Positions 5,446 to 34,793 of a DNA stretch of 64,000 bases are shown in pieces. The stretch covers positions 1,922,001-1,986,000 of the forward strand of contig NZ_CP114882.2 of NCBI RefSeq assembly GCF_027474525.2, in the 5' to 3' direction. Both the position numbers and the translations under genes were made by a program. The notes beneath the pieces are model-generated. The model was not told the DNA's origin, did not search any database, and saw nothing but the letters and a program-made list of their open reading frames with translations. Numbering within the stretch: the stretch's first letter is position 1; the number at the start of each line of letters is the position of its first letter. The stretch is from Flavobacterium lacustre. Lineage in GTDB: Bacteria; Bacteroidota; Bacteroidia; Flavobacteriales; Flavobacteriaceae.

Positions 5446-5491
5446 GCCATGAGCAAAATAACACGATTTTCTTATTTTATATCCAAAAGCC

Positions 5492-5692
5492 TCAAATTTG
5501 ATGTCCTTGACGTCACATTTGAGGCTTTTCGCGTCATGTATGACGTCATCCACGTCAAATTTGACCTTGTGTGACGTCATGTATGACGTTACTGACATCA
5601 AATTTGACCCTCTTTGCGTCATGTAAGACGGTGGCAACGTCAAATTTGACCCTACATCACGTCAAATTTGACGTCATCCACCTCAAATTTGA
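5492..5692. repeat. Array of ten 10-bp palindromic boxes at 21-22 bp spacing (array A)
   Basis: Ten cores of the form TCA-N4-TGA begin at 5492, 5513, 5534, 5555, 5577, 5598, 5619, 5640, 5662 and 5683. The steps are 21, 21, 21, 22, 21, 21, 21, 22 and 21 bp. Six cores are the exact palindrome TCAAATTTGA; two are TCATGTATGA, one is TCACATTTGA and one, at 5619, is TCATGTAAGA. Many cores extend to GTCA...TGAC, and the spacers often contain GACGTC-like sequence. The spacing equals two helical turns, so all boxes face the same side of the DNA. The array sits between convergent genes. It is not a CRISPR array and matches no element I can name. Confidence 0.85.
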
Positions 5693-5897
5693 CGTTTTGG
5701 GATTGTTTTTACAAAAAAAATAGCCAAGTTAACAGGAATGCATTAGTCTTCCGGTATGGAATTTTATTCTAAAACTTTAAACCAAAAACGACACTATAAA
5801 TCATAAAAGAAGTAGTGTTTTTCGAGATAGCTTTTTCTACAACACATAGTATGTAAATTAATGAATCTATTGTTTTTAGTTAAATTAACTCCGGCGC

Positions 5898-34391: not shown

Positions 34392-34793
34392 TTTTTGTGT
34401 AAGGTAGTCTATTAAAAACCGTTAGGAGGATAAAGCTGTTTTACTTCCTGTTTTAGCTACGGTAAGTCCTAATAACCTAAAAATTTACGTACACAGGGGT
34501 AAAATTTTACATCATTGACCTAAAAATTTACGTACACGAGGGTAAAAGTTTACGTCAGCGACTTAAAATTTTAGGGGCCAAGGGGTAAAATTTTAGGTTG
34601 TTAGCCTAAAAATTTAAGTACATAAGGGTAAAAGTTTAGGTTGCCAGCCTAAAAGTTTACGTACACAGTGGTAAAAATTTACGGCGGCAGCTTAAAATTT
34701 TACGTGTCCAGTGGTAAAAGTTTAGGTTGGTTGACCTAAAAGTTTACGTATAAAGGGGTAAATTTTTCATATAAATACGTATTTATTGTTGGT
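34392..34793. other. Intergenic region dominated by palindrome array B
   Basis: This 402-base gap lies between two minus-strand genes. Positions 34392-34477 show no feature I can name; 34478-34768 is the array; the last 25 bases are AT-rich. No open reading frame or RNA gene is supported. Confidence 0.8.
34478..34768. repeat. Array of 14 palindromic boxes at alternating 22/21 bp spacing (array B)
   Basis: Cores of the form TAAAA-N-TTTA (TAAAAATTTA, TAAAATTTTA or TAAAAGTTTA) begin at 34478, 34500, 34521, 34543, 34564, 34586, 34607, 34629, 34650, 34672, 34693, 34715 and 34737, with a degenerate one at 34759. The steps are 22, 21, 22, 21, 22, 21, 22, 21, 22, 21, 22, 22 and 22. The two bases before each core alternate strictly between CC (or CT) and GG, so the true unit is a 43-bp pair. 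Spacers vary ('CGTACACAGGGG'-like after odd boxes, 'GGTTGCCAGCC'-like after even boxes). The geometry equals array A at 5492-5692, but the core sequence differs. Confidence 0.88.

Follow-up and report, generated by a model that had tools for sequence, protein, structure and literature searches.

An array of 16-bp palindromes spaced by 21/22 bp in Flavobacterium lacustre, and a small protein whose genes recurrently adjoin such arrays

The window analysed here, a 64,000-nucleotide stretch of the Flavobacterium lacustre genome, contains a solo array of phased palindromic boxes, array B, which we hold on balance to be the DNA half of a two-part module composed of a protein and an array, with dimers of the protein binding the boxes. 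Genes for this partner protein recurrently have an array of 16-bp palindromes with 21/22-bp spacing within a few hundred bp, and we infer that the protein likely binds the boxes.

Array B and its geometry

Array B (Table 1) has box centres running from 34483 to 34764, with TAAAAATTTA, TAAAATTTTA or TAAAAGTTTA as the core in 13 of its 14 boxes. Both the number of boxes and the degenerate last box given in a preliminary description, made from the letters of the window, are present in the sequence, and the alternation of CC/CT and GG in the dinucleotide 5' of the core, also given there, is true of all 14 boxes. Its near-errorless 22/21 alternation is accurate for the first 11 of the 13 intervals (22, 21, 22, 21, 22, 21, 22, 21, 22, 21, 22, 22 and 22 bp), the final two being both 22. 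Its strict 43-bp unit holds for array B, where TRF also detects the 43-bp period, and fails for array A and as a general rule: over 53 arrays, found with a program that permitted intervals of 20-23 and 42-44 bp only, there are 339 intervals of 21, 105 of 22, four of 23, three of 20 and one of 43. The strict 43-bp double unit is therefore a local form of a 21/22 spacing rule, in which boxes of 16 bp are separated by spacers of 5-6 bp across arrays.

Array B is confirmed as real and beyond chance. On a generic score (symmetry plus the AC..GT frame), array B reaches 25.5 and array A 30.6, versus at most 7.4 when the whole window is shuffled 20 times by a first-order Markov model, and the top symmetry-only chain of the window scores 23.4 versus 10.6 in Markov shuffles. 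The consensus score of array B is 73.1, the shuffle comparison resting on the generic score and not on this one.

Table 1. Positions of the arrays, array parts and partner genes (array positions are those of the window)
Feature	Position	Strand	Description
Array B	34475..34770	.	14 sixteen-bp near-palindromic boxes, core TAAAANTTTA, centre spacing 21/22 bp; solo, without adjoining partner gene
Array B, boxes 1-9	34475..34662	.	Flanks alternate ACC/ACT/GCC and GGG (43-bp double unit)
Array B, boxes 10-14	34669..34770	.	Final two intervals 22 each, final box degenerate
Array A	5489..5695	.	10 boxes, core TCANNNNTGA, spacing 21/22 bp; orphan class, no same-class partner gene in genome
Partner gene of this genome	C1:1894800-1895300		60 bp after sister array; ~27 kb before window start
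Second, more divergent partner copy	L224:6051-6746, ~0.838 Mb		Shared synteny, AT-rich boxes upstream

Arrays in this genome and in related genomes

The genome (3.45 Mb, one contig) contains 11 array loci as identified by a sequence model: TAAAATTTTA-type cores occur in nine of them and TCANNNNTGA cores in the other two, array A and an array at 65 kb. Array A was earlier said to share the geometry of array B; the 21/22-bp spacing and the different core are as described, and the strict 43-bp alternation is absent (intervals of 21, 21, 21, 22, 21, 21, 21, 22 and 21 bp). Two copies of the partner gene are present, one adjoining a class-B array and the other an AT-rich array. Since neither adjoins a class-A array, array A is an orphan and no proof of a second binder; the earlier claim that it implies a distinct binder of its own finds no class-A partner gene in this genome.

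The search for further arrays proposed earlier was extended to related genomes, and arrays of the same geometry were found in 38 genomes out of the 398 in a genus draw (own genome included) and in five of 296 genomes of a phylum draw, one of these five lying outside the genus. Core sequences vary widely from array to array, supporting a geometry that is kept while the core varies. One intergenic region (L080, G292 C5) contains two arrays of unlike unit quality, roughly 150-200 bp apart. Several arrays lie near the starts of contigs C6, C13, C14 and C23 of genome G193, as expected if near-identical copies break assembly.

The nearest ORFs around 35 arrays are codirectional in 18 cases, convergent in nine, divergent in seven and undetermined in one; a general terminator or promoter role of the arrays was rejected, since these orientations look random. 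Seven of eight oriented copies oppose the replication fork, as judged by eye and not significantly, with the origin placed roughly from 20 sampled stretches. For one array-side gene, the closest relatives with a name come from Flavobacterium species, with at most 84% identity. In the close relative G392 (75% complete), a search for an empty site returned only array-like matches, and the genes neighbouring array B were not found. In the orthologous array pair L007/L058, one of 80 positions of the inner 10-mers is changed versus 32 of 473 intergenic positions (p 0.07), whole boxes differ at 5/128 positions, and the entire array at 13/209, no lower than its flanks; conservation of the inner cores in this pair is thus suggestive at most.

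The partner protein family

Comparison of array-side genes gave a protein of ~165 amino acids as a recurrent array neighbour in eleven genomes including the own genome, one copy being a fragment. By sequence search it is present in 62/398 genomes of the genus draw and 15/296 of the phylum draw, a broader profile has matches in 23/164 genomes of a class draw, and genomes of 15 family labels are represented over the three draws. A second subfamily has shared synteny at nine loci, where its genes adjoin what is presumably a uvrC-like gene. At the second copy of the own genome, the order is a gene that we take to be uvrC-like, the array, the partner gene and a gene that we take to be desuccinylase-like. 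AT-rich arrays lie upstream of the second-subfamily gene in several loci, and exceed Markov controls in L248 and L259. Outside the genus, two tandem partner genes (L246 and L258, G532 C45) lie by a chain of ~30 units with TAAAATTTTA-type cores.

Family members that were scanned have no match over cut-off in Pfam (10 proteins, singly) or NCBIfam, nothing convincing in PHROGs or PADLOC (one weak PADLOC match, E 0.036, among six proteins), no transposase signature and no recognised DNA-binding domain. A narrow profile of the protein has no PDB match at E 1, and a broader one has 11 weak matches, the top three to designed helical proteins; the protein is probably all-helical. Its pI is 4.8-5.7 in ten members, and across 28 members only N5, L37, D82, L119 and Y122 are invariant. 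A distant member (L256) has a weak Pfam match to Gag_p15 (E 2.4e-4, under cut-off), which is probably due to chance. One query of the protein to each of viral contigs, plasmids and phages gave no match, nor did two exact array patterns in IMG/VR viral contigs or one array query to each of plasmid and phage records. With all these queries empty, a phage, plasmid or viral origin was rejected.

Association of partner gene and array

In the genus draw, the gene is present in 62/398 genomes, an array in 38/398, and both in 25 (Fisher 7e-14); without the nine seed genomes, the comparison is 16/29 versus 37/360 (3e-8). A gene match is absent in 13 of the 38 array-bearing genomes. In 39 thirteen-kb loci, chosen from the protein matches of the genus draw, the top symmetry-only chain lies at most 350 bp from the gene in 33 (three of them scoring below 8), where ~0.11 is expected per locus under a positional null that ignores the AT-richness of intergenic DNA. 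Without the eight seed loci, the count is 26/31. At a fixed threshold, an array is found at 48/69 distinct gene copies versus 2/156 control windows (38/59 copies without the ten seeds), leaving 21/69 copies with no array at threshold. Many partner genes brought to light arrays that the array models had missed, with boxes such as ACGTGGTTAACCACGT, ACCACTTTAAAGTGGT, ACGTATTATAATACGT, AGGTACCCGGGTACCT and CATGAACTAGTTCATG, and the gene-side classes also include TCAAATTTGA and ACGTGGTNNACCACGT types. Stretch L241, a duplicate, was excluded.

Because the finders of gene-side arrays assume 21/22-bp spacing, a separate scan tried all spacings between 12/13 and 33/34 on the flanking DNA of 31 non-seed genes and peaked at 21/22 (mean 12.65). 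The runner-up, 20/21 (9.71), ranks second because it shares 21, and every other spacing scored at most 6.75. In a later draw of 27 gene copies, two of which were truncated and therefore dropped, five of the 25 readable copies pass a strict threshold versus 0/250 shuffles, and the highest-scoring spacing is once more 21/22; two of the 25 (L270 and L292) were already known, and neither passes. The 20 copies below threshold are mostly distant members, indicating that in most of these the array is weaker, lost or different. One of the five passing copies, L295, looks like a simple direct repeat.

Protein and box sequences diverge together, as seen in the correlation of protein distances with box-profile distances (Mantel test, Spearman r 0.56, 0/2000 permutations, 48 pairs). 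Genome G193, with several gene copies, has four consensus box types, showing that the boxes of paralogues may differ within a genome. Solo arrays were compared in 12 genomes picked for having both array kinds, with eight of the 23 arrays from the own genome: 20/23 are closer to their own genome's gene-side array than to the mean of other genomes, with a mean distance of 0.058 versus 0.109 when genomes are permuted (1/5000). The three exceptions are array A, the 65-kb array of the own genome and one array of G013. This co-divergence and the likeness of solo arrays bear out the earlier expectation that a core class would track with a particular gene. Co-divergence is explained in part by linkage. 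Recognition is more strongly hinted at by the match of distant arrays, which could also have arisen if these were recently copied from the array beside the gene. In a weak test of eight hand-picked arrays from seven of the 13 gene-less genomes (three of the others being less than 77% complete), symmetry is 5.23 of 8 pairs, versus 5.98 in 26 solo arrays serving as comparison, whose genomes have a gene match or the gene next to an array (p 0.004), suggesting that orphan arrays may decay.

Proposed module

Homodimers of the partner protein would bind each palindrome in duplex DNA, and, given that 21/22 bp is two helical turns, all dimers would lie on one face of the helix. Neighbouring dimers would touch, building a cooperative nucleoprotein filament or focus that may be likened to the complexes of centromere-binding or iteron-binding proteins, and solo arrays like array B would be extra docking sites, spread by whole-array copying. 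On the generic score, the gene is followed by its array in 35/40 cases and preceded by it in 5/40. The complex might serve chromosome organisation, partition, silencing or the spread of a selfish element; as most gene-side arrays are downstream, and so not simple operators, our guess is that it is a centromere-like or DNA-organising focus. This role is favoured, with a selfish mobile element as the main rival.

Several points count against the module. The acidic pI of the partner protein, in which no known domain was recognised, warns against taking binding for granted. Linkage would also lead protein and box to diverge together, and recent copying would likewise account for the likeness of solo arrays. 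There are genomes with arrays and no gene, gene copies with no array, the orphan class A and a variable position of the array relative to the gene.

Competing explanations

The arrays may instead be non-autonomous mobile elements of MITE or REP type, the small protein being, or belonging to, a mobilising machinery and the boxes serving as sites of movement with no host role, a possibility that we regard as unlikely. An alignment of seven class-B arrays shows a nine-box element common to four copies in the genome (L002, L004, L017 and L003) and shared in part by array B; its ends are conserved, AAGTAG standing on one side in all four and in L007, and AGGTTAT on the opposite side. The element's presence in several class-B arrays indicates that whole arrays have been copied around the chromosome, and does not support the earlier argument against simple copying. 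Movement would also fit the patchy occurrence of arrays in the genus draw and the mixed orientation of their flanking ORFs, as well as the relatives' loci of an array-B neighbour gene, 0/23 of which have an adjoining array at threshold (L096 has one ~2.7 kb off). Against it, no target duplication is visible by eye among the copies of the own genome, no transposase signature occurs in the members scanned, just five residues are invariant among 28 members, the single protein queries to viral contigs, plasmids and phages are empty, and one subfamily is in shared synteny at nine loci. Descent from a mobile element, named in the preliminary description as an outcome that would count against it, thus stays partly alive through the dispersed solo arrays and is opposed by the empty viral, plasmid and phage queries.

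Less probable still is that the boxes are operator clusters, through which the small protein or another regulator controls its own gene or neighbouring genes. In keeping with this explanation, the array immediately precedes the gene in the genus's four TAAAATTTTA-type loci (L213-L216), and the second subfamily has the array upstream as well. The predominantly downstream position of gene-side arrays argues against it, as do the number of sites in most arrays, which exceeds what an operator needs, and the mixed neighbours of the arrays, whose commonest Pfam family accounts for 3/103 proteins.

The least probable explanation is that the arrays work as RNA, their transcripts forming strings of small hairpins to which the protein may bind. 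In its favour, array strands fold strongly as RNA (z -5.35 for array B, -5.30 for L004), and some box types have variable, non-complementary centres. It was rejected because similar palindromic units alone explain the folding, the window has no Rfam match at gathering score, the gene strand of downstream arrays shows no excess of G.U (148 GT versus 159 AC), no pairing (covariation) was found across spacers, and RNA would have no evident need of a strict two-turn spacing. Membership of a known RNA family, which would likewise have told against the preliminary description, therefore does not refute it. The boxes themselves favour duplex DNA: where both bases are off consensus, they are still complementary in 14/17 cases at the second pair and 24/31 at the innermost pair (tallies of units, not of independent events), and a hairpin cannot pair its centre bases. 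The innermost pair is non-complementary in 86/281 good units, and often in ACGTGGTNNACCACGT-type boxes as well. A shifted control of the covariation test also gave z=5, so that within-unit correlations partly reflect the decay of whole units, and the counts were relied on instead.

Comparison with described systems

REP sequences and BIMEs are dispersed intergenic palindromes tied to one gene, that of the RAYT (Y1) transposase. The arrays resemble this system as dispersed intergenic palindromes with one associated protein gene, and differ in that the partner matches no Y1 model and that the boxes form helically phased arrays. In REP/RAYT a GTAG-type foot adjoins each palindrome; here, AAGTAG marks one end in five copies of this genome, and does not recur at each box. 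A RAYT partner was rejected, as 10 partner proteins have no Pfam match over cut-off and the only Y1_Tnp match in the genome goes with a different repeat. This match (PF01797, ~3.156 Mb; L082:830-1330 and L082:1489-1950) is preceded by a tandem REP-like repeat of CTACAAAATGTATCGAACCGATGGTT type, unrelated to the palindrome arrays.

Porphyromonas gingivalis belongs to the Bacteroidota. Its BrickBuilt MITE, an intergenic element in 19 copies with a short-period tandem repeat in a dispersed element, is, going by the portion of the paper at hand, the closest described object met, and is like the arrays in being intergenic with a short-period tandem repeat (PMC4596501). In that portion, it differs in consisting of 23-nt direct repeats without spacers, with a leader and tail, and no partner protein is mentioned (PMC4596501). 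As to MITE traits, the ends of the arrays are conserved and unlike each other, target duplications were not seen by eye, and no empty site could be made out.

A small dedicated protein binds cooperatively to the sites of plasmid centromeres (parC/parS, tubC) and of replication iterons, which are spaced by about two helical turns and of which distinct classes can coexist. The arrays share the spacing of about two turns and the coexisting classes, cooperative binding by a small protein being putative here; unlike these systems, they number several per chromosome and have no plasmid match with one array query and one protein query. Among 22 recurrent neighbour clusters at 39 loci, neither a partition-type NTPase nor a replication initiator was recognised by eye. 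MatP and matS likewise combine a small protein with dispersed palindromic chromosomal sites, which are single and of conserved sequence, whereas the arrays have several to ~25 boxes with varying cores. By geometry, 16-bp boxes with 5-6-bp spacers are not CRISPR, which has long repeats and unique spacers of repeat length. The weak PADLOC match among six proteins does not indicate a known anti-phage defence system, and no curated structured RNA family was found in the window. No paper in the literature surveyed (titles and abstract openings, few subscription papers) could be recognised as an account of the arrays or of the partner protein. Since for each known system a defining trait is absent or not clearly present, the arrays and protein are filed under none. 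The joint divergence of protein and boxes suggests an undescribed kind of protein-DNA module.

Implications

A wider reading, which is possible and which we hold with some doubt, is that the small helical proteins make up one family found throughout the phylum Bacteroidota, every member having a helically phased palindrome array to itself, and that together they form orthogonal DNA 'addresses' on chromosomes. Proteins and boxes would co-evolve rapidly, paralogues would have distinct codes, and arrays would seed extra docking sites, in a centromere-like or selfish system that operates with neither NTPase nor transposase. If true, an unnamed protein family would be coupled to arrays of constant geometry and changing recognition sequence, providing a natural, evolving set of protein-DNA codes and a new example of multi-site cooperative binding. 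It would also offer a testable bacterial case of protein-DNA co-evolution, and the first functional clue for a family that is unnamed in the curated libraries searched.
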